This document shows, piece by piece, positions 5,859-38,978 of a stretch of DNA of 39,886 bases. The translations under genes and the position numbers were made by a program. Below the pieces are notes generated by a model. It searched no databases. It had not been told where the DNA came from and saw nothing but the letters and a program-made list of their open reading frames with translations. Source of the stretch: a virus. The DNA lies in the IMG/VR virus record IMGVR_UViG_3300005530_000055, positions 1 to 39,886 of that record, one strand, 5' to 3'. Within the stretch, counting starts at the first letter, position 1. Each line of letters opens with the position of its first letter.

Positions 5859-6029
5859 CTAGCTAGCGCGACGCGCTTTCTGCGCACGCTGCGGAGCCTG
5901 CGCCCTGCCATTCCCGTTCGCACCCTGGGTAGAGGAGAAATACACCTGCGAGACAACACCCTGCCTGCGTGCCCGGGTATGAGCGCGCCTGCGGCAGCGT
6001 ACCGCCTGTGATCTGCGTGTCTGCATCAT
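5859..6029 (-). CDS. Small Arg-rich head/neck protein, 56 aa
   Basis: An ATG at 6029 shares its A with the TAA of the connector gene (TAATG), so translation is coupled. The 56-residue product starts MMQTRRSQAVRCRRRAHTR and ends with AQKARRAS; about a quarter of the residues are Arg or Lys. The central YFSSTQGANGNGRAQ segment is flexible. The tight coupling and clean coding frame make it real. The strong positive charge suggests contact with DNA or with acidic virion surfaces at the head-tail joint, but the function is not recognised. Confidence 0.75.
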   Translation of the reverse strand: MMQTRRSQAVRCRRRAHTRARRQGVVSQVYFSSTQGANGNGRAQAPQRAQKARRAS

Positions 6030-7015
6030 TAGACAGTCCTCCGGTATGGTGAGCAGAGAAGCTCAGCCTCAGTATTCAATCCCACGATATCCCCGCCAGT
6101 TCCCTGTGAATGTCCCCCGATGTCATGAATCGTCGTTGAGGTGGCACCACGGGTAAGAGCTTCAGCTGTCGCGAACAGGATGCAGGCTTCCTCGATCGCG
6201 GCAGGGAGGGTGCTGACGATAATCCCCGCCTGATGCGGATATGCGAGCGGTTCGGCAAGAGTCAGGATGCCCGGACCTGTACTTGCGGAGGCGGCGGTTA
6301 CCCGGACGGCTTCCTGCTGTCCCGCGTCTTTGATGATCCCGGTAGCTCCGGTGTATGTCCCGAAATAGTTGGTGATCGCCCATCCGGTGCAGTCATCTAC
6401 GGGGAGCGTCGTGGAACCTGCGTCTATGAATTCATCGATCTCTGCGTGAGGCCACCCGTTAATATAGGTGGTTTTGACAGCCCATCCGTTACGCCCGTAC
6501 TGCCAGTTAATATAGCCAGGAGCTACCAGGATTGCCTGAGAACCCTGAGCGGTGCCCCCGGGTGATGTACTCCCGTACAGTCCGATGGGAGGCTGCTCAG
6601 GCTCGTAGAGTCCTGTGGGGAGGGAGGTCCACTGTCGAGGCCACAAGTTGTTGGGGCAGGTTTCGACGTTCAGCACTTCCAGTACAGGCCACCGGGAGAG
6701 GATGATGCGGGAGTTGAACCCGGAAAGCCCCCAGTAGGGACTTGCGGACTGTCCTCCAGCTCCGGGACCGGAGGTGATGCGGAAGTCAGGTCCGTGCAGC
6801 AGCTCGACATCCATGGTGGCACGGAGAACCTGGTTGCAGTAATTGTCCACTTTCGAGGTTGCCCTCGCGCACATATTCCAGATTTCAGCCTGCGTCTGGG
6901 CAGGGGTGGCGTCATCCCAGGGAGTTATCGAGGTCCAGTCAATCCCTGTGGGTGCCTGCTGGAGTGTCACAGCGGAAATATAAGGAGCAAGCCCCCTGGA
7001 GATGGGTGATGCCAT
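6029..7015 (-). CDS. Head-tail connector (adaptor) protein
   Basis: 328 residues from an ATG at 7015, chosen over the TTG one codon earlier because GGAGGG lies seven bases upstream of the ATG. The N-terminal third has helices with WDDATPAQTQAEIWNMCARA and VDNYCNQVLRATMDVE, resembling the helical adaptor fold of phage head-tail connectors (HK97 gp6 type), here extended by a large Gly/Pro/Trp-rich beta domain. The C-terminus returns to helices (EEACILFATAEALTRG). The protein would bind the portal and prepare the neck for tail attachment. Position downstream of the capsid genes and upstream of the tail genes agrees. At about 330 residues it is larger than classical adaptors. Confidence 0.7.
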   Translation of the reverse strand: MASPISRGLAPYISAVTLQQAPTGIDWTSITPWDDATPAQTQAEIWNMCARATSKVDNYCNQVLRATMDVELLHGPDFRITSGPGAGGQSASPYWGLSGFNSRIILSRWPVLEVLNVETCPNNLWPRQWTSLPTGLYEPEQPPIGLYGSTSPGGTAQGSQAILVAPGYINWQYGRNGWAVKTTYINGWPHAEIDEFIDAGSTTLPVDDCTGWAITNYFGTYTGATGIIKDAGQQEAVRVTAASASTGPGILTLAEPLAYPHQAGIIVSTLPAAIEEACILFATAEALTRGATSTTIHDIGGHSQGTGGDIVGLNTEAELLCSPYRRTV

Positions 7016-7058
7016 CAAAACACCCTCCCCTGATAGTCCTGTTGTTTAAGGATAGCGT

Positions 7059-7181
7059 TTAGCTGCTGTCTTCGGAAGTGTTCTCGTCTTCTTGTTCTTC
7101 TTTAAGCCACTTCTCGATCAGTCTCTCCCGGGTTTTCCCTGTGATCAGGTGACCCATCACGGAGTCCACTATCTGCGCCAT
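7059..7181 (-). CDS. Small acidic-tailed protein, 40 aa
   Basis: An ATG at 7181 follows AGAGGAGAACC, a strong ribosome site located inside the 3' part of the zinc protein gene. The product begins MAQIVDSVMGHLITGKTRE and ends in a run of Glu, Asp and Ser (EEQEDENTSEDSS). It has the look of a genuine mini-protein: an amphipathic helix followed by an acidic tail. It overlaps the upstream gene by 80 bases in another frame. Function is unknown; a small assembly factor or an interaction partner for the basic 56-mer downstream are guesses only. Confidence 0.65.
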   Translation of the reverse strand: MAQIVDSVMGHLITGKTRERLIEKWLKEEQEDENTSEDSS

Positions 7182-7392
7182 GGTTCTCCTCTGGCAGTTC
7201 GATCCGTACGTCGCTTTTCTTGCCTAGTCTCTCGCACTTGTAGCAGAGATAATAATCCCCCTGCCATCTCGCGTGCTTCAGGCAGATATCGCCGCGACAT
7301 GACTCGCATTGCGCGATAGGAGCAGCACTCCGGGCTGAGCGTCCGCGACGGGGACCGCCGCATTTGATGCACAACCCGGGTGCTCTGCTCAA
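7102..7392 (-). CDS. Zinc-finger protein, 96 aa
   Basis: Starts at a TTG at 7392 with AGGAG five bases upstream. Residues 8-52 hold three CxxC pairs and a histidine (CIKCGG, CESCRGDICLKHARW, CYKCERLGK), a compact treble-clef or LIM/B-box-like zinc site. The C-terminal 30 residues are hydrophilic and overlap the next gene. It probably binds nucleic acid or a protein partner in the cytoplasm. It is the third of three consecutive zinc-binding products between the capsid/sugar block and the connector. The family is not recognised beyond the cysteine pattern. Confidence 0.7.
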   Translation of the reverse strand: MSRAPGLCIKCGGPRRGRSARSAAPIAQCESCRGDICLKHARWQGDYYLCYKCERLGKKSDVRIELPEENHGADSGLRDGSPDHRENPGETDREVA

Positions 7393-7400
7393 TAGGACTC

Positions 7401-8063
7401 CTATGTAGTAAGCCTTGCGATAAGCTCGTCTTTCTTGCCTTTATCGGAAAGACCCGCCTCGCGGCATCTAGCTTTCAGGGTCGCGATATGCAACCTGTTC
7501 AGGGGAATATCATCCACGGTCGCGGTGATTTCCTTCTGCTCGTTCATGGAGATTCCGCATTCACCGCAGAACTTGACGCCAGCGGTATTGTCATGCCCAG
7601 CAGGGCAGATGACACTCCCGTGAATCACCGCATCGTTCAGTCCGGACTTCTGCAGGAAGAACAGGACATCGGGGCGGGTGGTAACGTCAATCCCTGCGGA
7701 TTTCAGTGCGATCAGGGATTCAAGGGCTTTCAGCTGCTGTTCTCCGCGTTCCTTGATGACGTGATTGACCTGGATTTCATCAGGAGTCAGCGGGACAGTA
7801 TCAGGGGTACTCGACCACATCGGGTCCGCGTCGGGGACGCGTTCCTGTCTTGAGGGAATACCGGCTTCCTTGTTCCCGGGGATTGTCCGCAAGACTTTCG
7901 GCTTGCGATCCCCTTTCAGGTGCCCCTCGCAAAGGGGGCAGGTAAGCTTGAATTCTTCACTGGGGGCTCCGTTACGCACGGGTCGGGAATGCGTTTCGCC
8001 GCACCCTCCGGACGTAACCGGAATAGAGACGGAACATACGTCTCTGCGGGCATAAAGAACCAC
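7401..8063 (-). CDS. Zinc-ribbon protein with C-terminal SAP-like domain
   Basis: 220 residues from a GTG at 8063 (AAAGGTGA upstream). Three regions are visible: an N-terminal cysteine site (C9, C21 and the CPLC pair near residue 42), a central charged helix (HVIKERGEQQLKALESL), a second ribbon (CPAGHDNTAGVKFCGECG), and a terminal LHIATLKARCREAGLSDKGK with DELIARL. The last matches the SAP helix-turn-helix pattern (LKxxCxxxGLxxxGxKxELIxRL) found in DNA-binding proteins. A DNA-associated role in the head, or in late regulation, is inferred. Such a gene between capsid and connector is not a standard structural component. Confidence 0.7.
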   Translation of the reverse strand: MVLYARRDVCSVSIPVTSGGCGETHSRPVRNGAPSEEFKLTCPLCEGHLKGDRKPKVLRTIPGNKEAGIPSRQERVPDADPMWSSTPDTVPLTPDEIQVNHVIKERGEQQLKALESLIALKSAGIDVTTRPDVLFFLQKSGLNDAVIHGSVICPAGHDNTAGVKFCGECGISMNEQKEITATVDDIPLNRLHIATLKARCREAGLSDKGKKDELIARLTT

Positions 8064-8079
8064 GTTAAATCACCTTTCA

Positions 8080-8406
8080 TCAAGGAACGTAATGTCCTTC
8101 TAGTTTATTTTTTTCCATTTCAGATTCGGGAACAGTATCCGCCCCGCATTTAGGGCAAGTCCTCGTCCAGGAATGATGGATCGTGTTACTGGGGCAGCTC
8201 GGGCACCACCTGCCCTGCGGACCGCCTTTGATGTACAGCTTCTCCGGACCGGCGTCCACGAGCCCGCCTTGTGCGTAATTGTTGTTCTTCAATGCCGCGA
8301 GGTGATGATCCGCCACATCTACGAAAGTTCCTGGTTTTGCCACGTACCTTGTCCCGTCCTGCGCCTTGAAACCCATGCAGCCAGGGGGAAGATTAACCCT
8401 CGTCAC
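8080..8406 (-). CDS. Small protein with C-terminal zinc ribbon
   Basis: 108 residues from a GTG at 8406. Residues 1-60 form a small beta module (FKAQDGTRYVAKPGTFVDVADHH, then LKNNNYAQGGLVDAG). A classic ribbon follows: CPSC, thirteen residues on CPKCGAD. The spacing fits a single zinc ion. It begins eight bases after the preceding gene ends and is followed directly by the SAP protein. Function unknown; the N-terminal part resembles small head-completion modules of actinophages, but this is a loose resemblance. Confidence 0.65.
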   Translation of the reverse strand: MTRVNLPPGCMGFKAQDGTRYVAKPGTFVDVADHHLAALKNNNYAQGGLVDAGPEKLYIKGGPQGRWCPSCPSNTIHHSWTRTCPKCGADTVPESEMEKNKLEGHYVP

Positions 8407-8413
8407 CGAGTTT

Positions 8414-8689
8414 TTACCCTTCAGTGGAAATGATGTAATTAACCGGGATCGTAGTAGAGGCAGTGTTCAGCCCGAATACGGTCGCACCCTGGGAACTCGG
8501 GAAAGTCTCGAACATTGTCGGGCTGGTCGCTACCCCGTATCCGTTACTTGCGGTAAGCCTTGAGCTTGTCCCGAGATACAGCTGTCCGGTGGCTGCCGTG
8601 GAATAAAATGTGACACTGCATGCGCCCGGAGGGATGGTGAAAAGAGGTGCCGTACCGGCAACAGCAGCCTGCCCCATGATTATCGCCAT
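8414..8689 (-). CDS. Small beta-rich virion protein, 91 aa
   Basis: The ATG at 8689 (AGGAG four bases upstream) is preferred to an upstream start at 8725 that would overlap the GT2 gene. The product is Thr/Ser/Ala/Gly-rich with a YLGTSS...FETFPSSQGATVFGL pattern, which echoes the probable decoration proteins at 16297-16617 and 15738-16259. It is likely a virion surface or cement protein. It sits just after the sugar cassette, so it might also be a glycan acceptor (inference only). Confidence 0.65.
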   Translation of the reverse strand: MAIIMGQAAVAGTAPLFTIPPGACSVTFYSTAATGQLYLGTSSRLTASNGYGVATSPTMFETFPSSQGATVFGLNTASTTIPVNYIISTEG

Positions 8690-8696
8690 ACAGCTC

Positions 8697-9407
8697 CTAA
8701 AACCTTTTAAGCACCCAGGACACATCTTTGTTGAATTTCCTTCTCAGCAGGGAAATCTGGTGCGGCATAACGGCAGCCCGCCACTGATGGAAAGCCTGCA
8801 AGTCAGATTTCCCGAACCAGTCCTCCGCGTAATGATACAATTCGTCGTATTCAGTTTCCGGGTCAACGGAATAATGATGATGCTCAATGACAACCTCGGG
8901 GACATACCGGAGCAATCCTGAGCGCTTGCCTGTCTCAGCCCAGGCGTTATCGATGTAGTAATGACTGAAGCTTGCTTCCGCGAACTGCCCCATCACCTTT
9001 ACGATATCGCTGGAAATCATGATGATCTCAGGGATGTCATTCCTGCGCTTATCGTCCGGGTAAAGCATCCCTGTTCCGCCCATGCTTTCCAGCTTGCGGA
9101 GCATGATCGTATCCCAGTGCGGGGTGCGGAATACATGGTCATTTCCTACGAACATCAGCGCGTCGTAATCATCCCAGAATGCCTGCGCAGTCCTGTTCAG
9201 CTTCTCGACGTTCGTCCCTCTCGGGGACAGGGTGCTGGTAAGAGCGCTTCCCCAGTCAATCCCGTTGTACGTATCCTCATCATCAGGGTCCATGATGAAC
9301 ACGACATCCGCAGCGTCCGTGTTCTCCCTGTAAGAATCCAGCAGGCGCTCAACCTGCTTCCGGCGACCCCGGGTGGTAACCATGACAAGCAAGGTCAGAT
9401 CTGACAC
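8697..9407 (-). CDS. GT2-like (GT-A) glycosyltransferase (copy 1)
   Basis: 236 residues from a GTG at 9407; GGAG lies six bases upstream, while the ATG at 9413 touches the ribosome site and is less likely. The N-terminus has the GT-A strand and loop LTLLVMVTTRGRRKQVERLL, followed by FIMDPDDEDTY and a DALMFVGNDHVF segment that supplies the acidic (DxD-type) metal site. The C-terminal SHYYIDNAWAETGKRSGLL block is shared with the paralogue at 31471-32163 (DHWYIDNVWADLG). It closes the sugar cassette. Donor and acceptor are unknown. The shared blocks make the family call secure at the fold level only. Confidence 0.8.
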   Translation of the reverse strand: MSDLTLLVMVTTRGRRKQVERLLDSYRENTDAADVVFIMDPDDEDTYNGIDWGSALTSTLSPRGTNVEKLNRTAQAFWDDYDALMFVGNDHVFRTPHWDTIMLRKLESMGGTGMLYPDDKRRNDIPEIIMISSDIVKVMGQFAEASFSHYYIDNAWAETGKRSGLLRYVPEVVIEHHHYSVDPETEYDELYHYAEDWFGKSDLQAFHQWRAAVMPHQISLLRRKFNKDVSWVLKRF

Positions 9408-9416
9408 GATCATCTC

Positions 9417-10094
9417 CTAATTCCACCACTCAAAGTAATCGCCAACCTCTAGCGATTTCCCTGCGTGGACAGTTTTCAGCCCTTTGGGGCGGTAAAGACT
9501 TTCCGGGATGCACCGGAAGTCAAAGCTGACCCGGGTCTGACCGGTAGTGTTCAGCTTGTTCCCGTGTTCCCACTGGACCGCATCGAACGTGACGATATCC
9601 CCGTAGTCTGCCCGGATAGGGATGAATTCCTGGCTCCCCCAGGAGGATTCGATGTACACCGAGTTGCTTTCGAAAGCCTGAGTGAACGGAACCCAGTAAT
9701 TGATCTCCCCGGGGGAGTGGTTGTAATCCTCGTCCGTGTGAAACTCCCCGACCGCGACATTCCCCGGGAGGTGAACCCGGAACGTGGGGACATTCTGGTA
9801 ACAGAAAGGCTCATCAATGCGCGGGGCGATGATATTCTCTATGAGCTTCAGGTAATCAGCCCTGATCTCACTGAAATGATCATAGAATTTACGGTGAAAC
9901 TCAGTGGACTGATCCGTCTTGCAGGACAGGACATCAATATCATCCCCGACCCCGAGGTTTTCCAGCTTGCCTACACTGAAAATCTCGCAGAGCAGCTCAC
10001 GAAACCTGTATTCCCGCGTATCGTAGGTGAAAATACTAGGAGGAAACGTCTCTTCTGGTAGTGACACTTTCACGTCCTCTTGTGGCATGAGCAT
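9417..10094 (-). CDS. StrG-like 2-oxoglutarate/Fe(II) dioxygenase
   Basis: Up to 225 residues. The key block is VGEFHTDEDYNHSPGEINYW: an HxD iron-binding pair followed by the GEINxWxP motif seen in the streptomycin StrG family. A distal histidine lies in QWEHGNKL, and the 2-oxoglutarate-binding arginine in TRVSFDFRC. The expected reaction is oxidation or hydroxylation of a sugar or aglycone in the cytoplasm. The start is uncertain: the ATG at 10094 is the longest, but GTG at 10073 would give the GTGA overlap common in this operon, and GTG at 10067 has the best spaced AGAGGA. It follows the epimerase and the 28-mer and precedes a glycosyltransferase, pointing to sugar tailoring. Confidence 0.75.
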   Translation of the reverse strand: MLMPQEDVKVSLPEETFPPSIFTYDTREYRFRELLCEIFSVGKLENLGVGDDIDVLSCKTDQSTEFHRKFYDHFSEIRADYLKLIENIIAPRIDEPFCYQNVPTFRVHLPGNVAVGEFHTDEDYNHSPGEINYWVPFTQAFESNSVYIESSWGSQEFIPIRADYGDIVTFDAVQWEHGNKLNTTGQTRVSFDFRCIPESLYRPKGLKTVHAGKSLEVGDYFEWWN

Positions 10095-10156
10095 TCACAG
10101 GTCTTCGACTTGCATTTAGGGGCATGCTCCCCCAGCTGGCAGCGAATCGAGATCAT
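10070..10156 (-). CDS. Cys-rich mini-protein, 28 aa
   Basis: The ATG at 10156 overlaps the epimerase stop as ATGA, and the frame runs 28 codons to a TGA at 10070, itself placed in a GTGA overlap with a possible start of the dioxygenase. The product, MISIRCQLGEHAPKC followed by KSKTCECSCHKRT, contains five Cys and two His in 25 residues, enough for a zinc or iron-sulfur site. Both ends fit the overlap rule of the cassette, which is strong evidence for translation. Function unknown: a metal-binding peptide or a coupling peptide for the next gene. Confidence 0.65.
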   Translation of the reverse strand: MISIRCQLGEHAPKCKSKTCECSCHKRT

Positions 10157-11061
10157 GAGTACCGCCAGGAGACGAGTTCTTTCAATCCTGTTTTCAGGTC
10201 AACCTGAGGCTCCCACCCGAGTTGCTTTCTCGCGAGGGAGATGTCTGCCTTTTTCCGGGGACATGGGTCGATCTTCCTGACCGGACCGTATTCTGGCTGC
10301 AAATCCGATCCCATGATCTCCAGCAGCATCCCTGCCAGGTCAGTGAGAGTTGTCTCTATCCCTGAGGCGATGTTGAACGCACCCACGACATCGCTTTGCG
10401 CTGCGAGGATGTTAGCTCTCGCCACATCCCCGACATACACGAAATCGCGAGTCGCAGTTCCGTCACCTTCGATATACGGGGGGAGTCCAGCGGAAATCCT
10501 GTCCATCCACCTGGGGAGAACCTCCGTGTAAATCCCGCTGACATCCACCCGGGGGCCGTAAACGCTGAAATACCGCAGCATCACGCAGTCCAGGTCAAGA
10601 CTGCGTGCTATCCCCTCGGTGAACGCTTTCCCTGCCCCGTATAGCGTCGTATCGTTGTACGAGTGATGTTTCTCGTTCGTGGGGAACTCGTCCGCAAGCC
10701 CGTAGATACTGGAGGAACTCGCGGCTACGACCCTGGCTTTCGCTCTTTTCGCAGCCTGGAAAACGTTGAGAGTCCCTGTCGCAATCACATCAATCCCCAG
10801 CTGGGGGTCTTCCGCGCACTGCTTGATTTTCACCGCAGCCTGATGGAAAACGTAATCAACTCCGTACATCAGGCTTTCAAGCAGTTTCTCATCGCGGATA
10901 TCACCCAGGTAGAACTGAGTTCCCGGAGGGACATTCTTCCTGTCTCCCCCGGAGAGGTTGTCCAGGACGAAAACTTCCGCCCCTGCCTCGATGAGCTGAT
11001 CAGCGATATGACTCCCGATCAGTCCTGCTCCTCCGGTGATCAGGCACCGTGAGCCTTTCAT
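10153..11061 (-). CDS. NAD-dependent sugar epimerase/dehydratase (extended SDR, GalE-like)
   Basis: 302 residues from an ATG at 11061 that overlaps the GT17 stop (ATGA). The Rossmann signature GGAGLIG is at residues 10-16, the NAD ribose-binding Asp at about 34, and the catalytic YxxxK as Y141-GAG-K145 with the preceding Ser cluster AASSSSIYG at 114-121. This is the arrangement of UDP-glucose 4-epimerases and related nucleotide-sugar enzymes. The likely substrate is a nucleotide-activated hexose. Length is slightly short but complete. In the cassette it could supply the sugar donor for the neighbouring transferases. Substrate specificity cannot be read from sequence. Confidence 0.9.
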   Translation of the reverse strand: MKGSRCLITGGAGLIGSHIADQLIEAGAEVFVLDNLSGGDRKNVPPGTQFYLGDIRDEKLLESLMYGVDYVFHQAAVKIKQCAEDPQLGIDVIATGTLNVFQAAKRAKARVVAASSSSIYGLADEFPTNEKHHSYNDTTLYGAGKAFTEGIARSLDLDCVMLRYFSVYGPRVDVSGIYTEVLPRWMDRISAGLPPYIEGDGTATRDFVYVGDVARANILAAQSDVVGAFNIASGIETTLTDLAGMLLEIMGSDLQPEYGPVRKIDPCPRKKADISLARKQLGWEPQVDLKTGLKELVSWRYS

Positions 11062-11834
11062 TTACGTTCCCCTTCAGGACGGAACCATTCTTGCGGGCAG
11101 TGACGTTCCTGAATCCACAAAGGGAGATCGCCAGTTCCCGTAGGACGCATCTGGGTGGTCAGCCCGAAAGGCTTCCCGTCCTCCCAGGAGCGTCCCTGCT
11201 CGTACAGCAGGCCCGCGTCAGCCCATTCCAGCATCTGGCTGGTAGTTTCAGTGTGAGAGGTTGCGAGAGCTTTCTCCTTGATGGCTTCCACTCCCCCGAG
11301 CCAGGAGAAATGCCATCCCGCCCCGGGAATGCGCGGGAAGAAATTCCTCATGTTGCGCATTCTCTCGAAATCAGTGATGTCTTTCATCTTCGCGGTCACC
11401 GGACCGCACCAGGGGAGCGGATGCAGCCAGTCAACGGCGAAATTATGGAATGACATTTCCAGCGCCCGGTTGGGAGGGAGGAATTCTGCGACGATCTCGT
11501 TGCGGGGAATCTCATCCACATCGGAAAGCATGATCAGGTCATCACGATCCGCATCCCCGAGCCCCTGCATGAGATGCCTGCGATGCGCGATAGCACGACG
11601 ATGATTATCCCCGGGGACATCCAGGTCTTTCGCAGGGAGCATGACGTGAATGATCTTGTCTTCCCATGCCGCGAAACGTTCCCTGTTCTCAGCGTAATAG
11701 AAAGGCTTCGGGGCACCCTGATGGGTAGCGGCAGCTTCCGCCAGGACATGCTTAAGGGGAATATCTTCCAGTTCCCTCAGTCTGCATTCCAGGAGGTCAA
11801 GCTCATTATGAAACAGGAAGCAGTCGTAAATCAA
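11058..11834 (-). CDS. GT17-family glycosyltransferase
   Basis: 258 residues. The family N-terminus IYDCFLFHNELDLLECRLREL begins exactly at a TTG at 11834 whose TTGA overlaps the stop of the isomerase, so I prefer it to the ATG at 11861. Conserved GT17 blocks follow: a VLAEAAATHQG segment, a DDLIMLSDVDEIP acidic motif, and GWHFSWLGG. Eukaryotic GT17 enzymes add a bisecting GlcNAc; bacterial and viral members act on unknown acceptors. Here it is one of two transferases in the sugar cassette. Family confidence is high; the donor is unknown. Confidence 0.85.
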   Translation of the reverse strand: MIYDCFLFHNELDLLECRLRELEDIPLKHVLAEAAATHQGAPKPFYYAENRERFAAWEDKIIHVMLPAKDLDVPGDNHRRAIAHRRHLMQGLGDADRDDLIMLSDVDEIPRNEIVAEFLPPNRALEMSFHNFAVDWLHPLPWCGPVTAKMKDITDFERMRNMRNFFPRIPGAGWHFSWLGGVEAIKEKALATSHTETTSQMLEWADAGLLYEQGRSWEDGKPFGLTTQMRPTGTGDLPLWIQERHCPQEWFRPEGERK

Positions 11835-12409
11835 CGTGCAGCCTCGCTGGAGGCAGACCATCTTGCCTTCACGTGAGCAGCGAAAGCGTGCAGGATTGCC
11901 TGATGCGCGGTTTCCACCACTCCGTAATCATGCACGTCCGCTTCCACGTGCACCGATACGTCAGCCCGTTCACGCGCCTTGCCCCCGGTGAACCCGGTAA
12001 GCGAGACCGACTTCAGCCCGTTGTCGCTCGCGTATTCCAGTGCCCGGATGATGTTCGGGGATTTCCCCGAGGAGGAGATGGTGAGCAGCATGTCGCCAGT
12101 TCGGGCAAGCATCTCCAGCTGGCTGGAGAACACGTTCTCGTATCCATCATCGTTTCCTGCGGCGGTAATCAGCTCCGGGCTCTGCCCCAGGGAGATGGCA
12201 TGCAGTCCCGCTTTCGCGAAATCGTTGGCTGCGTGATTCGCCAGCCCTGCGGACCCGCCATTCCCGCAAAGGAACACGAACCTGCCCATCCTCCGGGTGT
12301 TCAGCAGCATTCCTGCTGCTCTTTCCAGGTCTGCGGGGTCCATTGCCTTGCAGGCGATGTCAACCCCGGAAGTCAGGTCATTCAGTTGCTCGCTTAGCGT
12401 TTGATTCAT
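11831..12409 (-). CDS. gmhA: Sedoheptulose-7-phosphate isomerase-like SIS protein (GmhA family)
   Basis: 192 residues, the normal GmhA length, with the ATG at 12409 overlapping the phosphatase stop (ATGA). The SIS phosphosugar-binding signatures are intact: CGNGGSAGLANHAANDFAKA at about residues 48-67 and LTISSSGKSPNIIRAL. The C-terminal VETAHQAILHAF carries the catalytic-type His seen in GmhA. The family converts sedoheptulose 7-phosphate to D-glycero-heptose 7-phosphate, the first step to activated heptose. No HddA kinase, GmhB phosphatase or nucleotidyltransferase is in the window, so the product must be handed to host or other phage enzymes, or the substrate differs. Confidence 0.88.
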   Translation of the reverse strand: MNQTLSEQLNDLTSGVDIACKAMDPADLERAAGMLLNTRRMGRFVFLCGNGGSAGLANHAANDFAKAGLHAISLGQSPELITAAGNDDGYENVFSSQLEMLARTGDMLLTISSSGKSPNIIRALEYASDNGLKSVSLTGFTGGKARERADVSVHVEADVHDYGVVETAHQAILHAFAAHVKARWSASSEAAR

Positions 12410-12849
12410 TCCGCTAGCATAGCAGAAATCCTAGCGAGAACAGCGGGGGTTCCAGCCTCGATCATGTCAAGCGCATGAGCAAAATCAGCAGGTCCCCCGA
12501 AGAAAGGATCAGGGATTTCCTCATCGCAGAACAGGTGCACCCTGTCATCCCCGCCAAGCTCCCGGAGATCTGCAAGGTTCTTCTTGTCCATGGCGAAAAG
12601 CAGGTCCCGTTCGGTGAGCCACGAAGACTGGAACTGCCTAGCTATATGCCCTGACCCGTCGTAACCTCGATCAGCCAGTGCTTTCTGGGATTCGATGTGC
12701 ATCGGGAGACCAGCATGTCCCGTGTTAGTACCCGCGCTGTCCACGATGACATCCCTGATACCGGCACGAGCCAGCTCAGCACGCAATACGATTTCAGCCA
12801 GCGGGGAGCGGCAGATGTTACCCAGGCAGACGAAACAGACGCGGATCAT
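12406..12849 (-). CDS. Low-molecular-weight protein tyrosine phosphatase
   Basis: 147 residues from an ATG at 12849 that overlaps the methyltransferase stop (ATGA); an upstream TTG-type start at 12894 is rejected because it would lie deep inside that gene. The P-loop is perfect: VCLGNICRSPLAE with nucleophile Cys8 and Arg14 (C-x5-R-S). The general acid is Asp114 in the DPFFGG loop, and the VDSAGT strand follows as in the family. Bacterial members (Wzb, PtpA types) dephosphorylate tyrosine kinases controlling polysaccharide export. Here it is embedded between sugar-modifying enzymes of a phage. Possible roles are control of a host capsule kinase, or dephosphorylation of a sugar intermediate. 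Confidence 0.92.
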   Translation of the reverse strand: MIRVCFVCLGNICRSPLAEIVLRAELARAGIRDVIVDSAGTNTGHAGLPMHIESQKALADRGYDGSGHIARQFQSSWLTERDLLFAMDKKNLADLRELGGDDRVHLFCDEEIPDPFFGGPADFAHALDMIEAGTPAVLARISAMLAE

Positions 12850-13415
12850 ATCCTCACCCACCACAGCGCAGACTCGTCGTTGGCATCGAAACACCGGGCG
12901 ACACCCTCGGAAACCGGGGGATATTGATAGTCATCTCCGCAGAAAATAGCGCCCTCGACCGCGAACGGGAGAAATGCCCTGATATTATCCGCAACCTCAT
13001 CAGCGGTGTGCATCGCGTCAATATGAAGAAACCTGACAGGTCTCGTCCACTGTGCCGCGAACTCCCGCCATCCCATCTTCCAGATCTGAACGTTACCCTG
13101 GGTGCCTTCCCTGACGTTCTCCTGGAATATCCCGTGATTGTCCCTGGAGATGATTTCCTGTGTCAGCCCGATCGCGGAGAGACTCCCTGCGTGGTCATGA
13201 GGATCGTATCTCTCATCTCCGTTGAGCACCTGCTGCCAGTCCCAGTGATCAACTGCGTGCAAGACTTTCGGGTAAACAGCGTTCGCGATGGGGATCGCGG
13301 AGAGACCCTGATGCACCCCTATCTCAATAACCTCCCCAGGGAGGTCATTCGTGGATGCCGCCAGTTCCGCAGTCCTGCTGAGCTGACCTTCGCTGATCCA
13401 GTGCTCGTCAAACAA
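12846..13415 (-). CDS. SAM-dependent methyltransferase (TylF/methyltransferase-24-like)
   Basis: 189 residues from a TTG at 13415, which has AGGAG five bases upstream and overlaps the aminotransferase stop by 8 bases; a longer start at 13454 would sit inside that gene. Motif I is VIEIGVHQGLSAIPIA, and the acidic pair FLHIDAMHTADEV resembles the metal-binding DAxHxxxxVxxD motif of TylF-type sugar O-methyltransferases. It would methylate a hydroxyl on the glycan or a nucleotide sugar. Its position between the aminotransferase and the phosphatase agrees with sugar tailoring. The C-terminus is short and ends with SALWWVRI. Confidence 0.8.
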   Translation of the reverse strand: MFDEHWISEGQLSRTAELAASTNDLPGEVIEIGVHQGLSAIPIANAVYPKVLHAVDHWDWQQVLNGDERYDPHDHAGSLSAIGLTQEIISRDNHGIFQENVREGTQGNVQIWKMGWREFAAQWTRPVRFLHIDAMHTADEVADNIRAFLPFAVEGAIFCGDDYQYPPVSEGVARCFDANDESALWWVRI

Positions 13416-14445
13416 GGAAACTCCTGACCGCATCAATGACCTGCCCGAGATCATCGTCAGTCATATCGGGATACAGGGGGAACGTGACCAGGGTTTTCCA
13501 TACCCTGTCCGTGACGGGGAGTTTCTTGTGTTCCCCGAAAATCCTGTGCAGGTTGAGTGGCTTGTAGTGCACTCCTGCTGATACCCCGCGAGAATACATG
13601 TGAGTGATCAGGCTGTCCCTGTGCTGCGTTCTCGCCACGAACATGTGCCAGGAGGAGTTCTCATCCCACTCGGGGAGTCTCAGCCAGTCCAGGTCGCTGA
13701 ATTCTTTCATATAGGTCAGCACGATCTTCCTGCGCAGCTCGTTCATCTCGTCCAGCCGCTGGAGCTGAGCCAGGGCAATAGCTGCGGTGATATCGTTCAT
13801 GTCCGCTTTCCAGCCAGGGTCGGGAATGCTGTAATCCCAGCCTTTGCGGTCAATCCCGAACCTGCGGAGTCTCCGTAGTCTCGCGGCAAGTTCCCCGTCA
13901 GGAGTGGTGATCATCCCGCCATCCCCGGAGGCGAGGTTTTTCACTGCATTGAACGACCAGCAGGCGACATCCCCGATCTGCCCTGCAAGCATATTGCCAG
14001 CAGCATGAGCGCAATCTTCGATAATCCACCCGGAGGGGAAAGAACGAGGGGAGTTCACGGTCCCCCCGTACCATACCGGGATGATCGCGGCAGTCCGCTG
14101 GGTTTCCTTGCTTTTCACGTCATCCCAGTCGATGCACAAGGTATTCTCATCGATGTCCGCGAGAACGACCCTACCCCCGCTGTGCAGCACTGAGAGTCCC
14201 GTAGCGGCGAATGTCAGCGCGGGCATGATAACTTCCCCGTCGCGTACCCCGAGAGTCTCCAGAGCGAGCTGGAGGGCTGCAGTGCAGTTGCTCACGGCAA
14301 CTGCATGCCGGGAACCGGTGTATTTCGCGAACTGTTCTTCCAGTTCCTCAACAACAGGACCCATCGACCAGAATCCGCTGCGGAGAACCCTGGTGACATT
14401 CTGAATCTCAAGGTCAGAGCAGCTGGGCTTGAAAAGCGGGATCAC
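13408..14445 (-). CDS. DegT/DnrJ/EryC1/StrS-family sugar aminotransferase
   Basis: 345 residues from a GTG at 14445 (GTGA overlap with the acetyltransferase stop). All hallmarks of the PLP-dependent nucleotide-sugar aminotransferases are present: SNCTAALQLAL phosphate-binding turn at about 52-62, Asp144 in the IEDCAHAAGN motif that contacts the PLP pyridine nitrogen, and Lys169 within WSFNAVKNLASGDGGMITT forming the Schiff base. It converts a keto-sugar nucleotide to an amino sugar using glutamate. The next upstream gene encodes an acetyltransferase of the type that N-acylates such amino sugars, a classical pair in surface glycan loci. No 4,6-dehydratase is in the window to make the keto substrate. 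Confidence 0.93.
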   Translation of the reverse strand: MIPLFKPSCSDLEIQNVTRVLRSGFWSMGPVVEELEEQFAKYTGSRHAVAVSNCTAALQLALETLGVRDGEVIMPALTFAATGLSVLHSGGRVVLADIDENTLCIDWDDVKSKETQRTAAIIPVWYGGTVNSPRSFPSGWIIEDCAHAAGNMLAGQIGDVACWSFNAVKNLASGDGGMITTPDGELAARLRRLRRFGIDRKGWDYSIPDPGWKADMNDITAAIALAQLQRLDEMNELRRKIVLTYMKEFSDLDWLRLPEWDENSSWHMFVARTQHRDSLITHMYSRGVSAGVHYKPLNLHRIFGEHKKLPVTDRVWKTLVTFPLYPDMTDDDLGQVIDAVRSFLV

Positions 14446-15107
14446 CGGATCGCACCCGACTCGTATTCGTGCTCGACTTCGCGGATAACTTTCGCAGGAT
14501 TACCCGCGACCACCGTGTATTCGGGAACGTCTTTCGTGACCACCGAGCCAGCCCCGATAATCGACCATCTCCCCAGGGTGAGGTTCGGGAGGATCGTCGC
14601 GTTCGTCCCGACGTAAACTCCGTCCTCGATGTCCACGCATCCTGAGATGGAGACGGCATGCGCGATGAAACATGAGTCCCCGACCCAGCTCTCGTGAGAG
14701 ACGAGGGCAGCCATATGGATACTTGTATTGTCACCAATAGCTGCTGACTGCTGGATATGCACGCCTTCCTGGACATACAACCCGACCCCGAGCTGCACGC
14801 CTTCCAGGTCAACCCCCGGGTCGATCAGGTTCGCGAACCGGCAGCCTTTATCCGCGAGCACCCGCGATGTCTTGTAGCGACTCGCGCAGTTACCGCTGAC
14901 CAGGTTGACGAACGACACATCGAACAAATCGAGAACTGTGAGGACATCAATCCCCGTTACCGGATATCCCGCGAACATCGTTCCCCGTTTGGCAGGATCG
15001 TCATCGATGAACCCGAGGATCTCCAGGTTCGGGTCAGCTGCCGTAACCCTGCGGAGCAGCCGCTCCACGTGAGGGTTGGATGCGCCATAGAGAGCTATCC
15101 GCGTCAT
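14442..15107 (-). CDS. NeuD/PglD-like hexapeptide-repeat acetyltransferase
   Basis: 221 residues from an ATG at 15107 (ATGA overlap). The N-terminal 80 residues form a small Rossmann-like sugar-binding domain (RIALYGASNPHVERLL, then ILGFIDDDPAKRG), and residues 95-205 form a left-handed beta-helix with hexad repeats (VDIEDGVYVGTNATILPN, IIGAGSVVTKDVPEYTVVAG). The putative catalytic His is in HMAALVSHESWVG. This two-domain layout is that of PglD/NeuD enzymes which N-acetylate amino sugars on a nucleotide. Pairing with the aminotransferase directly downstream supports synthesis of an N-acetylated amino deoxysugar. Confidence 0.9.
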   Translation of the reverse strand: MTRIALYGASNPHVERLLRRVTAADPNLEILGFIDDDPAKRGTMFAGYPVTGIDVLTVLDLFDVSFVNLVSGNCASRYKTSRVLADKGCRFANLIDPGVDLEGVQLGVGLYVQEGVHIQQSAAIGDNTSIHMAALVSHESWVGDSCFIAHAVSISGCVDIEDGVYVGTNATILPNLTLGRWSIIGAGSVVTKDVPEYTVVAGNPAKVIREVEHEYESGAIR

Positions 15108-15679
15108 GGGGTTATCTTAGCAGGAACCTTATGGACGATCGCGAGTCCGTAGCGGAACAGGACTGAATCGCACTCCCCGTCCCGGGTTTTCAGCAGCTCC
15201 AGCAGGGATGTCATCGTGCTGATCATCTCTGGTTCGTACTGGGTGGGGACCAGTCCGTGGAACCCTACGTACCAGTCTTCGATAACGTAGTAACCACCGG
15301 GGGCAACCTGGGGCCACAGGATTTCGAAGGTTCTCTTCGAGAGTGTCCCGTTATGGCTGGCATCTTCAACGATCAGGTCGAAGGGACCGAGTTCAGCAAG
15401 TGAAAGGTCATCCTGGTTCTTGACAACTTTCACTGTTCCCTGTGGCCATATAGCCGCCTGGTTGCAATCCACCCCGGTGATTGTTCCCAGCGGGAAAAGC
15501 CCCTGCCACATCCGCAGGGATTCCCCCTCGTAAACCCCTACTTCACAGACGTTCCCGAAAGGACCGATATCTGCGGCAATCTTCAGGTACTCCCGGAAGT
15601 ATCCGTGCGGTTCGATCTTATCTGTCTCGATATAGCTGGGCACCTGTATTCCTGCGGAATACGGATACAAGTAAGCCAT
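15104..15679 (-). CDS. SAM-dependent methyltransferase, first gene of sugar cassette
   Basis: 191 residues from an ATG at 15679 with AAGG nine bases upstream. Motif I is NVCEVGVYEGESLRMW, motif II GTITGVDCN, and a later PFDLIVEDASHNG and APGGYYVIEDWYVGF complete a class I fold close to the macrocin/cephalosporin-hydroxylase-like methyltransferases. It leads the cassette after a stable hairpin at 15698-15728. Substrate unknown; by context a sugar. It shares only the general fold with the methyltransferase at 12846-13415. Confidence 0.8.
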   Translation of the reverse strand: MAYLYPYSAGIQVPSYIETDKIEPHGYFREYLKIAADIGPFGNVCEVGVYEGESLRMWQGLFPLGTITGVDCNQAAIWPQGTVKVVKNQDDLSLAELGPFDLIVEDASHNGTLSKRTFEILWPQVAPGGYYVIEDWYVGFHGLVPTQYEPEMISTMTSLLELLKTRDGECDSVLFRYGLAIVHKVPAKITP

Positions 15680-16738: not shown

Positions 16739-18652
16739 TTAACTGAAAGGCGTAATATCGCTGACCTGGAGTCCCTGGAGGATTCCGCTGTACATAGGAG
16801 CATGCGCAACGAGAGTCCCGAGGAGGAAAATGGAGTAGCGGAAGGAAGCGTCAATGACAGGCCATGCGACACTAACGTAATCCTGCACGCAGGTCATTTC
16901 CCACGCATTGTCAACGTGGCTCCACGTCTGCGGGAGCTGGTAGCTCATAAGCAGCGCGGTGCCCTGGCTCATCCACGGGTGGACAGTCAGCTTGACAGTG
17001 CTCCTGGTGACCGGGTTGACGAACTCTGCAACCGCAGCGCCAGCACGAATGCCGCCGATCTGCGACTGGTCGATGTTCAGCAGGTAGTTAAGAGCGCTAC
17101 CCTGGTTGAGCATGTCATTTGCGAGCCTCATGAGGTCGCCACCATCAGCGACAATCTCAGAAGGATCAGCCTTGAACACGCCCGGGGTGACATTGTTCAT
17201 GCCATTGTTTTCCCACAGGGCATCCAGTGCGGTGAAAATGACGTTAGTGCTCAGGTGAGTTCCGACGCTCTGGTTGACATATCCGCCCTTCCAGACGTTC
17301 CCGCCTCCGAACCCGACGTTAGAGTAGGGACCGCTACCGGTTGCGGAAAGCCCGGTGAGAGTGGGGATAAGCCCCTCCATCCGGTTTCCGGAACCCGTTC
17401 CGGTGTCTGTGGTCGGGAAAGAACCGTTAGCGGACGTGGGGTCAGCACCCTGGATAGTGAACCGGATACCACCGACAGCGTTCGCGGTCTGCGCACCGCT
17501 GGTGGTGACTCCTGCCTGCACGGTGGTTCCTGCCATCAGGAATACGGTGGCAGAGTTACCTGCGTAGTAAAGGTTGTACTGCTGGGCTCCGGTAACTGGC
17601 GCAATGGTTACGTCAATAACCTGACCAGCGGAAGTGGTGACAGTCGCGGCAGTGCTAGCGGCAGTCTCCCCGAAGTAGTTCAGCGCGGAGACCCTGACAC
17701 GGGCAGTACCAGTGGTTCCGACAGCAGTCTCATTCGATCCTGCAGTACGGGCAACCAGAGTGGGGGCGCTGGGAGTAGCCAGAGGCTGGGAAGACCCAGC
17801 AATCATCTGGTACTCTTCACCCAACATCATCTCCTGGAGAAGCACCAGGTTTGCCAGGGCAGAAATATCTTCGAATCCCTGACCTTCGAACTGAGCGAGC
17901 CACGAGAGCGACTCAGTAAGCCCGAAGAAACGGTAAGGGACATTCAGCTTGAACTCAGTCTGCTTACCAGAACCCGGGAGGTTCATGGGCCACTGAGTGC
18001 TCGCCATCGTCCCGCCTGCCTGGACCAGCTCAGGAATGGAGATGTCAATAACGCCCTGACCCCCGGTCTGGGAGCCGCTGACCCCGAGCAGACCGTAGAC
18101 CTGGCGGGAAGCACCCTGACCGGCAGGACGGGGGAACTTGTTGCGGAAAAGGGTATATACCGGGTAGATGAGCCTCGACGGTGCGAGCAGGTCAAAGGGG
18201 ACCAGCCCATAGGGAGCACCGTTAAGCCCCAGGTTTCCCGCAGTGAAAGACTTCCCGAGAGCAGCGTCCTGAGACTTGCGGACTTCCGCGTCATTGTTCA
18301 GCTGCATTCCCAGACCCTTGTACTGCTGGGGTGCCTGCCGCCACAGCTCAGGGTTAATCCGGGATACGGTGTCAGCGGAATTCCACCGACCGTCAAAAGC
18401 AGCAGCCCTGGTATCGAGAATCGCCTGATGCGACTTGGACAGGATCTGGGTGCTGTGGGCTCCCTCACTGAGGGGACGCCCGTCATTGGTAATGTGCCCG
18501 ACACCCTTGACAAGGGACTTGGTAAGGGTAGTCATCGTACCCTCGTAGTCGGACCGGCGAGCTACGCGCTCACCGAAAGCGCTCGCACTGCCAGCAGAGG
18601 ACCCGCCCATTCCTGGGGCGGTAACCTCATCGGCTGTAAGAACGTCAGCCAT
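16739..18652 (-). CDS. Major capsid protein with inserted Ig/FN3-like domain
   Basis: 637 residues from an ATG at 18652, preferred to the TTG at 18682 because GGAGA sits six bases upstream of the ATG. The N-terminal ~100 residues are helical and could act as a delta/scaffold region. Residues 135-285 hold the HK97-type core (YGLVPFDLLAPSRLIYPVYTLFRNK, PYRFFGLTESLSWLAQ). Residues about 290-400 form an FN3/Ig-like insert (PSAPTLVAR, VSALNYFGETAAS, VTGAQQYNLYYAG). The core then resumes to residue 637 (FTALDALWENNG, VNPVTRSTVKLTVHPWMSQG). The order protease then capsid then decoration is canonical. The insert should be displayed on the shell surface. Confidence 0.85.
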   Translation of the reverse strand: MADVLTADEVTAPGMGGSSAGSASAFGERVARRSDYEGTMTTLTKSLVKGVGHITNDGRPLSEGAHSTQILSKSHQAILDTRAAAFDGRWNSADTVSRINPELWRQAPQQYKGLGMQLNNDAEVRKSQDAALGKSFTAGNLGLNGAPYGLVPFDLLAPSRLIYPVYTLFRNKFPRPAGQGASRQVYGLLGVSGSQTGGQGVIDISIPELVQAGGTMASTQWPMNLPGSGKQTEFKLNVPYRFFGLTESLSWLAQFEGQGFEDISALANLVLLQEMMLGEEYQMIAGSSQPLATPSAPTLVARTAGSNETAVGTTGTARVRVSALNYFGETAASTAATVTTSAGQVIDVTIAPVTGAQQYNLYYAGNSATVFLMAGTTVQAGVTTSGAQTANAVGGIRFTIQGADPTSANGSFPTTDTGTGSGNRMEGLIPTLTGLSATGSGPYSNVGFGGGNVWKGGYVNQSVGTHLSTNVIFTALDALWENNGMNNVTPGVFKADPSEIVADGGDLMRLANDMLNQGSALNYLLNIDQSQIGGIRAGAAVAEFVNPVTRSTVKLTVHPWMSQGTALLMSYQLPQTWSHVDNAWEMTCVQDYVSVAWPVIDASFRYSIFLLGTLVAHAPMYSGILQGLQVSDITPFS

Positions 18653-18685
18653 ACGAATTCTCCGATCTTGGAGCGAACTCAATAA

Positions 18686-21560: not shown

Positions 21561-21722
21561 GCGCACTTGCCACCTGTCTTTCACCGGGAGGATAAACCCG
21601 ATAGAGGTGACGATAATCCCGTGATGGAATTTTGGGTCAAGTCCAGCGCGCTCGCAGGCTTGCATGGCGCAGGCAAGGTCATGCAGCAGCAGTGCCTGTT
21701 TTCTTTTCTTTCTCTTACTCAT
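21540..21722 (-). CDS. Small basic protein, 60 aa
   Basis: The ATG at 21722 overlaps the preceding stop by 8 bases. The product begins with a strongly basic segment (MSKRKKRKQALLLHDLACAM) followed by an amphipathic helix and two short hydrophobic strands (HGIIVTSIGFILPVKDRW). It could bind nucleic acid. It is the last gene of the small-gene cluster between portal and protease. Function unknown. Confidence 0.6.
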   Translation of the reverse strand: MSKRKKRKQALLLHDLACAMQACERAGLDPKFHHGIIVTSIGFILPVKDRWQVRLLRHFK

Positions 21723-22188
21723 GTGTTTCTTTCAGCTTCTCCCATTCAGCAAGGGCATTCCTGGAGGCTTCAATCACCTCGGGGTGTACGTTACCTTTTC
21801 CCGATGCCCATCTGCGGGTCGCATTGATAGCTGTTGCTATAGCCTGACCCTCTTCCATTCCGTTGCGGATCAGGGCATGAGCGATATTCTGTATGTACGC
21901 TGGAAGCTGCTGTCGTTCTGCAGTATGCCTGTCCGGGGTATTCCACAGCCCGTGAGTTCCCAGGGGATTATGGGTACTGGACAGGGCAGGAGTCTGCTCT
22001 GACTTTTCCGTTACCGCTTCCCAGCGATTACAGACATCGTTAGCAAAAATGTTACCTTCAACGAGATCGCATCCTCCGCTGTTCATCCGGTGAGATTTCG
22101 GGTGAAACATGACGCAGTTTCCGCAGTGTTTTGAAGAATCAGCAGAGCGGTAGTTGACGCTTTCCTTGCTGACTTTCTCCACACTCAC
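21715..22188 (-). CDS. Four-cysteine (HiPIP-like) small protein, 157 aa
   Basis: Starts at a GTG at 22188 (a GTG at 22182 is also possible). Residues 14-56 carry YRSADSSKHCGNCVMFHP, then a Cys in GGCDLVEG and one in NDVCNRWEA. The pattern YRxADxSKxCGxCxxF...CxxVxGxIxxxxxCxRW resembles high-potential iron-sulfur-like proteins found in phage head modules near the portal. The C-terminal half is helical with ALIRNGMEEGQAIATAINATRRWASG, a motif seen in phage structural proteins. A metal site is likely; redox activity is unproven. Confidence 0.7.
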   Translation of the reverse strand: MSVEKVSKESVNYRSADSSKHCGNCVMFHPKSHRMNSGGCDLVEGNIFANDVCNRWEAVTEKSEQTPALSSTHNPLGTHGLWNTPDRHTAERQQLPAYIQNIAHALIRNGMEEGQAIATAINATRRWASGKGNVHPEVIEASRNALAEWEKLKETHE

Positions 22189-37286: not shown

Positions 37287-38978
37287 TTACAGCTTCCTGC
37301 CCGCGAGCCAGTTCCTCGGAGTATACCCTGGACCTGTAGCATTTCCTGAGACTTTCATCACCTGTGCCATATACACATTCGGGTCAGGGGCGCACTCGGG
37401 GCAGGTTTTCAGTTTCATCGGGTACTCGTGTCCCTGCGGGCAGTTCCGATAATAAGCAGCTGACCAGCGGATCGCGGACTTTCTCCTCGTATTATCTGGC
37501 TCTTTCGCCTCCGCAACCACAGGGGTCCCGCAATGCTTGCATCTTTTGTCGATATAGACGTGAACGTCTTCCCCGCAGCCTTTACACGCGGAAAACCCGT
37601 AGATTTCCTTGTAGTTGACTGCCCCGAATCCGCAGAGTTCCCGCATCGCGTACACCCATGCGTCTGCCCTGTCATCATGGGCTTTCACCCGGTCGTCATA
37701 GGAGGTGAGGGCGCACAGCTGCCGCTCCAGTTCCTCGAACTGACCACGATCCCCCACCATGTGAATCCTCCCCTGTTCTGCAAGAGGAGACACTGGCTGC
37801 GCCCTGATCTTCTTTGAGTTCATCGCCTGGATCAGTTTCAGGGGGATATAAGGGTCTTTCTGGTACAGCATTCCCTTGAAATAGTCCCCGACCCCGTTTT
37901 TCTCCCCAACCACGAGGGAGGCATCCCACCGGTAATAAGCATCTACCAGCGCGTCCATGACCTTATCCGGGGTTCCCTGCATAGAGCAATCCTGGAGGGT
38001 GTACAGGTGATGATCTTCCCCTTCCGCGCAGACCGCGATCCCGGTTTCGTCGCTTTTGATATTGGAGGAGCTTGCCGGGTCTACCGCTACTACGACTCTC
38101 CTGAAATCAGGGACCTCGTGTTCTTCCACCCGGTACTCGTCAAACCATTCCATCTGGAATAGCGCCCCGGGGATTTCCGCGATAAACTCACCCTGCAGCT
38201 CCTGCCGTTCCAGGAACGTCCCCTCCCCGAATTTGGAGGTGACTTTCGCGATCATCTTCCCGACGCCTTCGGCTTTCCAGTTCTCGGAGCTGGTGGCGCG
38301 GGTGAAATGGAACCTGCTCGGGTCTCTTTCCGCTTCCTTGATGATTTCCCGGAGGAGTTTCGTGTTTCTCGGGGTGGTGGTGATCATCAGCTGACCTTTA
38401 GAGGTTCGCAGCGCAGGAAGGAGACCTGCCTCGTAGAACTCGGGGTAGCGGATAATCCCCAGCTCGTCAAACCAGCAGTAACCCAGGTTAGCGCCTCGGA
38501 TAGATTCAGCTTTCTCAGCGGAATACCCCTGGATTATGCTCCCGTTGCGCAAGGTGATACGGAGATCGTTTTTGTTGTGGTCGATGATCTCGCCTGGCTG
38601 CGCCGCGTTCTTGATCCCGGAGGGACCTTCGAAACAGGTGTTTTTCACGTCCGCGAACGTTGGAGCGCAGACCGCGACCCAGATGCCCGGCTCGGAGAGC
38701 CCCCTGGAGAGCGCCCAGTTGGCTCCTGTGAGGGTTTTCCCGAACCCCCGCCCCGTCATGAGCAGCCAGGTCTCCCAGTCGGGATAGGGACGCTCACAGC
38801 CGCACGACTTGCCTGTCCTTGGGTCGGGGAGGTGATGCCTCGGATGGTCCGGGGGGAGCTGCTTGTTGTACGCCTGGACTTCCCACGGGCGGGGCTCGAC
38901 CTCGGCTTTCTTCGCGAGGATCGCCTCCCGGATACGTGCCCGCGTTTCCGGGGATAGTTTCGAGAAATCTTTGCCCAC
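37287..38978 (-). CDS. Terminase large subunit with C-terminal zinc ribbons
   Basis: 563 residues from a GTG at 38978. The ATPase has Walker A GRGFGKT at 76-82 and Walker B CWFDE with D171-E172. The RNase H-like nuclease shows VVVAVDPAS (D300), VVGEKNGVGDY (E359) and AHDDRADAW (D435/D436/D439). It packages concatemeric DNA through the portal and cuts it. Beyond the usual end, about residues 460-563 carry two Cys clusters: CKGC...CKHC at 465-483 and C513-PQGH...CPEC at 526-529, plausible zinc ribbons. No separate small terminase subunit is seen in the window; it may be beyond the right edge. Confidence 0.93.
   Translation of the reverse strand: MGKDFSKLSPETRARIREAILAKKAEVEPRPWEVQAYNKQLPPDHPRHHLPDPRTGKSCGCERPYPDWETWLLMTGRGFGKTLTGANWALSRGLSEPGIWVAVCAPTFADVKNTCFEGPSGIKNAAQPGEIIDHNKNDLRITLRNGSIIQGYSAEKAESIRGANLGYCWFDELGIIRYPEFYEAGLLPALRTSKGQLMITTTPRNTKLLREIIKEAERDPSRFHFTRATSSENWKAEGVGKMIAKVTSKFGEGTFLERQELQGEFIAEIPGALFQMEWFDEYRVEEHEVPDFRRVVVAVDPASSSNIKSDETGIAVCAEGEDHHLYTLQDCSMQGTPDKVMDALVDAYYRWDASLVVGEKNGVGDYFKGMLYQKDPYIPLKLIQAMNSKKIRAQPVSPLAEQGRIHMVGDRGQFEELERQLCALTSYDDRVKAHDDRADAWVYAMRELCGFGAVNYKEIYGFSACKGCGEDVHVYIDKRCKHCGTPVVAEAKEPDNTRRKSAIRWSAAYYRNCPQGHEYPMKLKTCPECAPDPNVYMAQVMKVSGNATGPGYTPRNWLAGRKL

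Follow-up and report, generated by a model that had tools for sequence, protein, structure and literature searches.

Some Firmicutes siphophages encode small proteins with a C-terminal SAP-type module, described as SAP, HeH-LEM or Rho_N proteins (PHROG 2724, 2250, 3281 and 390), of which Javan316_0032, phiMR11 orf45 and vB_Sags-UPM1 gene 12 are named examples. Three phages, Javan316 of Streptococcus, CJLB-5 of Campylobacter and phiMR11 of Staphylococcus, have a gene of the SAP/Rho_N type immediately behind the capsid gene, and in Clostridioides phage CD1801 a similar stretch, in which no gene is annotated, lies between the capsid and head connector genes; this slot position was found in four of the four phages examined, which were drawn from 65 records with a match. 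In the S. agalactiae phage vB_Sags-UPM1, gene 12, with HeH/LEM, Rho and SAP likeness, is likewise placed between capsid and connector (PMC10221047). These analogues have 82-108 amino acids, and the two sequences from Javan316 and CJLB-5 are devoid of cysteine. A second comparison is provided by Thermoanaerobacterium phage THSA-485A and Alicyclobacillus phage MMB025, in which capsid and adaptor proteins are related to those described below and two small genes stand between them, none of the four small proteins having a CxxC pair. How the packaging motor departs and the neck closes without leakage of DNA is, to our knowledge, an open question in phage assembly.

The DNA analyzed here is a virus record of 39,886 bases (hereafter, the window), whose neck genes and terminase are 100% identical in a 135,079-base IMG/VR record. 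An earlier note made from the letters of this DNA had drawn attention to three consecutive CxxC-rich ORFs of 108, 220 and 96 residues (positions 7102-8406), and all three are indeed present at that place on the minus strand; they are called Z108, Z220 and Z96 (Table 1). In the direction of transcription, the order is probable capsid gene, two small genes, a block of sugar-type genes, a 103-residue gene, Z108, Z220, Z96, a 40-codon ORF and the adaptor. The capsid-side anchor is a window protein similar to one annotated in MMB025 as "major head protein" (E 1e-8), and the capsid gene is also found upstream in those relatives whose flank extends to it. The trio thus lies in the neck region as the note had proposed, between capsid-side genes and the adaptor. 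The note had, however, taken the three genes to stand in place of adaptors and stoppers, and this part did not hold: the gene following them matches the head-tail adaptor family phrog_442 (E 3.8e-4) and, by BLASTP, the annotated adaptor of MMB025, gp68 (E 7e-13), and THSA-485A Tsac_2856 (E 3e-21), with the 40-codon ORF alone in between. Z108, Z220 and Z96 themselves gave no connector PHROG match at E<=1, and the adaptor is a separate gene.

Table 1. Positions of the head-neck cassette, its flanking genes and the terminase in the window
Feature	Position	Strand	Basis or remark
Head-tail adaptor (connector)	6029..7018	-	phrog_442 and BLASTP; behind the trio
40-codon ORF	7059..7181	-	Overlaps the non-conserved Z96 tail; GAGGAG before ATG
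Z96 ORF	7102..7392	-	Conserved domain in about the first 60 codons (7213-7392)
Z96 putative eight-ligand double-zinc module, cross-brace type	7234..7371	-	Invariant columns; Rim2 likeness
Z220	7401..8063	-	From the N-terminus: putative zinc module, linker, putative zinc ribbon and SAP domain
Z220 SAP domain	7407..7487	-	PF02037
Z220 putative middle zinc ribbon (C153 H157 C166 C169)	7557..7607	-	Alignment and Zn_Ribbon_1
Z220 putative N-terminal zinc module (C21 H25 C42 C45)	7929..8003	-	Most conserved part of the family
Z108	8080..8406	-	N-terminal region (1-58) and C-terminal C4 zinc ribbon
Z108 putative zinc ribbon (C68 C71 C84 C87)	8146..8205	-	Alignment conservation
Small conserved 103-residue gene, no function assigned	8414..8725	-	Precedes the trio
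Probable major capsid protein	16739..18682	-	Upstream anchor of the gene order
Terminase large subunit, its C-terminal tail bearing putative zinc ribbons	37287..38978	-	Terminase_6N, Terminase_6C, phrog_2
Two putative zinc ribbons of the terminase tail (C465 C468 C480 C483; C513 H517 C526 C529)	37392..37586	-	Sequence

At least two CxxC pairs were found in 5 of the 40 window ORFs taken as genes, namely, the three adjacent ones, an HNH-like ORF (match below cut-off) and the terminase. When all residues of the window were shuffled, none of 2000 trials gave three adjacent ORFs with at least two CxxC each; when, more stringently, each protein was shuffled by itself, the observed count was reached in 72 (Z96), 459 (Z220) and 201 (Z108) of 20,000 trials. 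Conservation of the ligands across relatives, from which we infer metal binding, is the stronger test, and the ligand columns described below are conserved. In addition, the trio genes are under purifying selection, with dN/dS of 0.05-0.16 in eight comparisons involving three near relatives.

The end of Z220 (residues 193-219) matches the SAP family PF02037 with 29.1 bits against a curated cut-off of 23.9 (E 7.5e-7), and the match was over the cut-off in a search of its own record as well, which bears out the SAP-type module claimed for the middle protein, the remainder of which is unlike SAP-containing chains. The best PDB profile matches of this domain were thyroid autoantigen (1jjr, which we take to be Ku70), Hcc-1, MKL1 and E1B-55kDa-associated protein 5. 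In an alignment of 40 Z220 sequences, from which the fragment L037 was excluded, H25, C42 and C45 are invariant, and C21, C153, H157, C166 and C169 are kept in at least 90%; C10 is not regarded as a ligand, because methionine stands there in three relatives. At E<=0.1, the SAP domain was detected in 31 of 40 members and Zn_Ribbon_1 in 31 of 40, and the middle ribbon is missing in at least two relatives (L036 and L084). Single members gave weak matches to Zn_Ribbon_TF, Zn_ribbon_RPB9 and PLATZ, and Rho_N was matched in three. The net charge of Z220 averages -3.0 (range -16 to +3; 41 sequences), and that of its last 40 residues stays between -2 and +5 (45 loci, with duplicates).

A profile comparison of the Javan316 post-capsid protein with the SAP tail of Z220 gave an hhalign probability of 90.5% (E 1.4e-6, a single comparison) over about 36 end columns, and the Javan316 protein matches PHROGs 2724, 2250 and 3281, as do a few of the divergent Z220 sequences (2 to 6 of 40), the window Z220 having no PHROG match at E<=0.01. 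In view of its position, this tail match and the PHROGs common to a few divergent members, we regard Z220 as a larger protein with putative zinc modules that fills the slot; with similarity confined to the end of the protein, it is not counted as a full member of the SAP/HeH/Rho_N family. Z220 shares with the Firmicutes analogues both the slot and the C-terminal SAP-type module, and differs from them in its length of 220 amino acids, its two extra putative zinc modules and its two zinc-type neighbor genes. Moreover, the CxxC pairs of the trio set it apart from the small proteins of THSA-485A and MMB025.

Z108 and Z96 were modeled with AlphaFold from family alignments, with middling confidence. 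In Z108, the ribbon ligands C68, C71 and C84 are invariant, and C87 is kept in at least 90% of 40 sequences. The model has a mean pLDDT of 63; block means reach 77-87 in the ribbon region (61-100) and only 43-57 in the N-terminal part, where strands at residues 2-5, 12-14, 20-22 and 28-31 and a helix at 33-41 are predicted. In structural comparison, the putative ribbon weakly resembles those of the ribosomal eL40 type (Z 3.0 at best, rmsd 3.7, 41 residues aligned). A Foldseek search of viral models gave no match for Z108 at E<=0.001, and comparison with one small post-capsid protein each of THSA-485A, MMB025 and Javan316 gave no support for a relationship of its N-terminal region, those of THSA-485A and MMB025 showing no measurable similarity.

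For Z96, the ORF of 96 residues exists as the earlier note described, and its conserved part is shorter, with a length of about 60: in two relatives the protein stops after 66-67 amino acids, and the tail is unconserved and overlaps the 40-codon ORF. The sole invariant columns in 35 sequences are C8, C11, C29, C32, C37, H40, C50 and C53, and the net charge of the core averages +6.7 (range +3 to +10; 35 sequences). The model (mean pLDDT 68; blocks within 21-50 at 80-90) consists of strands followed by a helix, and its structural matches were Rim2 (Z 5.1, rmsd 2.9, 48 aligned), melanophilin (Slac2-a; Z 4.4, 3.7, 55), piggyBac (Z 3.9, 2.4, 43) and FYVE (Z 3.9, 4.6, 58); these scores may reflect a common arrangement alone. 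Like cross-brace fingers of the FYVE, RING and AN1 types, Z96 has eight putative ligands in the order CxxC-CxxC-CxxH-CxxC with the spacing C-x2-C-x4-C-x2-H, although the scores are weak (Z 5.1 and below), and the window Z96 stays below every Pfam cut-off. The basic signature of FYVE domains is R(R/K)HHCR, and it is absent around C29-C37 in all 35 Z96 members. The best Foldseek match had an E value of 0.16, and family searches gave five PHROGs, each for one member (E 0.005-0.009), and no NCBIfam match. The weaker matches include zf-dskA_traR for one member and, by structure, the sigma-G inhibitor CsfB (Z 2.4). Where Z96 shares DNA with the 40-codon ORF, substitutions are concentrated at the third codon position of the latter, corresponding to the first codon position of Z96 (6 of 12 mismatches in one comparison and 9 of 14 in another), and the selection is thus seen in the 40-codon frame. 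This ORF has a good ribosome-binding site and a counterpart in L004 and L011 and is probably a real small gene.

Relatives were collected by IMG/VR searches with Z220, Z108 and Z96, and 122 loci were counted among the matches listed, which reduce to 78 distinct ones by the end of the Z108 gene; 45 loci from another search were excluded. Absence of the genes from relatives, which had been named as a refutation, is thereby excluded: in the DNA fetched for the 78 distinct loci listed, Z108 occurs in 77, Z220 in 69, Z96 in 63 and all three in 62, the gene used as query being present of necessity, and the one locus that lacks Z108 starts inside Z220. All 62 complete loci have the order Z108, Z220, Z96, and the adaptor stands behind them in 61. 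In a fairer set of 37 distinct loci obtained via Z108 alone, Z220 was found in the fetched stretch in 28, and 3 stop less than 2 kb from Z108. Five of the other six Z108-only records have Z220 and Z96 farther on, behind inserted sugar-type genes, and the sixth, a 29.5-kb piece, gave no Z220 match. Six loci have Z220, with no Z96 found in the DNA fetched (L046, L048, L050, L053, L061 and L084), and a search of their whole records yielded none in five and a weak one in the sixth (E 0.0019). Three of them (L048, L053 and L084) have the SAP domain; in the other three (L046, L050 and L061), SAP is missing too and the C-terminus of Z220 is rich in proline, alanine and basic residues instead, hinting that SAP and Z96 were lost together there. 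Because SAP, Z96 and the middle ribbon are each missing in some relatives, Z108 and the N-terminal module of Z220 form the near-universal core.

The clade is known here from environmental contigs alone and was seen only in IMG/VR. A tblastn search of 50,697 phage records with E values up to 10 gave no match for the window Z220 and no credible match for any of the trio. Z108 matched three records with E values of 5-8, two from phiSASD1, in which the match is antisense to gp30, and one from Lactococcus; Z96 matched two cyanophage records at E 8. With divergent queries against the phage records, no match was obtained for Z220 of L054 or Z108 of L060, and Z220 of L053 gave two SAP-only matches and one weak one. 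Scans of 84,980 genomes rely on conserved peptide patterns, so that distant prophages could escape them; the Z108 pattern returned 16 stretches with no relative among them, and the pattern of the N-terminal Z220 module returned 30, of which a single 22-residue match in a Chitinophagaceae MAG was taken as chance. A possible actinophage family with a similar motif was not confirmed in any search.

The terminase of the window also ends in putative zinc ribbons. In a survey of 26 clade records picked among the larger ones, the window terminase as query matched 16, and a divergent member used as query on the other 10 matched 8, over the last approximately 70 residues only. The pattern C-x2-C...C-x2-C closes all 24 tails (one of them from the window's phage), and an AYG-like motif precedes it in most. 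PHROG matches identify the second set as terminases, and BLASTP of one pair of the two types gave a significant alignment only at the C-terminal approximately 70 residues. Both types match phrog_2 over most of their length and are therefore distantly related; their tails may just have come from a common ancestor. By inheritance or exchange, the tail is, to judge from these alignments, better kept than the remainder of the protein. The window tail had no match in the phage collection; six of seven outside terminases have no CxxC in the tail, and the seventh, from SilentRX, has C-x-H...C-x2-C, which could be a ribbon of another form.

Our preferred reading, to which we give a probability of roughly 50%, is that the trio is a conserved cassette of the head-neck operon whose zinc-stabilized proteins act at the portal vertex in packaging and head completion. 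The portal mouth is the place common to the terminase and the neck, and the motor is exchanged there for the adaptor. Z220 would replace the small post-capsid SAP/HeH/Rho_N protein, enlarged by two zinc modules; Z108 would be a small post-capsid protein carrying a zinc ribbon; and Z96 would be a basic, probably cross-brace zinc finger made beside the adaptor. At the portal mouth, and on the DNA in transit there, the terminase tail and the zinc/SAP proteins would then come together, and, when the motor leaves, the zinc proteins would hold the DNA end, dock the adaptor, or both. Putative zinc modules on both sides, together with a SAP partner and a strongly basic one, would suit these proteins to holding DNA ends or docking the adaptor. 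A location of the trio in the virion and contact with DNA are part of this proposal. Handling of DNA at the neck, which the earlier note had put forward, seems plausible, and it gains an argument from the putative zinc tails of the terminases, to which the cassette would be functionally linked.

A more specific version is that the terminase tail and Z108, Z220 and Z96 form a co-evolving module, whose zinc ribbons, on motor and neck, would contend for the portal and the DNA end or hand them over; we regard this as tentative and rather unlikely. If true, such a hand-off would couple packaging with closure of the head in a manner of which no example was found in those portions of the literature that were consulted. 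Likewise, the titles and abstract openings of papers on zinc neck proteins, zinc terminases and phage SAP, Rho or HeH proteins mention no such cassette. The domain types are already known, and what appears to be new is their combination, the fixed place and the terminase tail. The post-capsid SAP/HeH proteins of common phages appeared in this analysis under domain-based labels only, and the small, clearly delimited zinc-type proteins in the slot of this clade, together with the terminase tail, provide tractable parts with which to ask whether the slot acts on DNA, the portal or the motor.

The main rival to a portal-vertex function is a purely structural one, in which zinc stabilizes very small folds and the proteins are passive virion parts, decorating capsid or neck as minor components and unconnected with the handling of DNA ends or with the terminase. 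The placement of the trio among small capsid-side genes is consistent with this, and two observations that count against a DNA role, the acidic average of Z220 and the absence of SAP and Z96 from some relatives, favor it as well; however, the retention of SAP in most Z220 members, the basic character of Z96 and the occurrence of the ribbon tail on both terminase types are not what passive parts would lead one to expect, and we consider this rival possible, if doubtful.

Less probable still is that the three are regulators of late transcription or termination that are encoded by chance in a structural operon, late transcription having been the earlier note's other suggestion. Post-capsid SAP relatives are labeled "transcriptional terminator", "Arc-like repressor" or "rho terminator factor", but these labels are based on domain likeness. 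The weak transcription-type ribbon matches of Z220 members and the zf-dskA_traR and CsfB matches of Z96 point in the same direction, as does a TFIIE-like zinc ribbon reported in some jumbo phages (PMC7824862); on the other hand, no helix-turn-helix or sigma-like domain was among the matches listed for the trio, and the slot between the capsid-side genes and the adaptor was kept despite strong divergence, as expected of assembly genes. That the proteins are packaged in the head or neck and injected with the DNA, protecting its ends or acting in the host, would agree with the neck-side gene position and with the occurrence of SAP in DNA-end and chromatin proteins (1jjr being among the best profile matches), and it has a model in 80alpha gp44, for which such a fate is described (PMC11661146); for the trio it seems very unlikely.

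Several further observations concern the surroundings of the cassette. The sugar-type block (8697-15679; glycosyltransferase, methyltransferase and sugar-modifying genes, judged by eye) lies inside the head-neck operon, and the two of its ORFs that were searched had no Pfam match at E<=0.01. Its position varies: in the window, sugar-type genes precede the 103-residue gene, in six relatives (L079, L083, L085, L106, L108 and L116) they separate Z108 from Z220, and three others (L039, L042 and L044) have no such block at the head-neck position. Transferase genes are annotated near the adaptor of Gordonia phage GMA2 too. The terminase of L170 has an apparent intein-like (Hint) insert that ends in HNC before the nuclease end. 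A small protein near the portal gene (21715-22188) weakly resembles high-potential iron-sulfur proteins (E 0.002, a match below cut-off), and in a 1414-residue ORF (22428-26672) a NUDIX domain occurs along with portal and Mu-F-like matches that lie just below or below their cut-offs.
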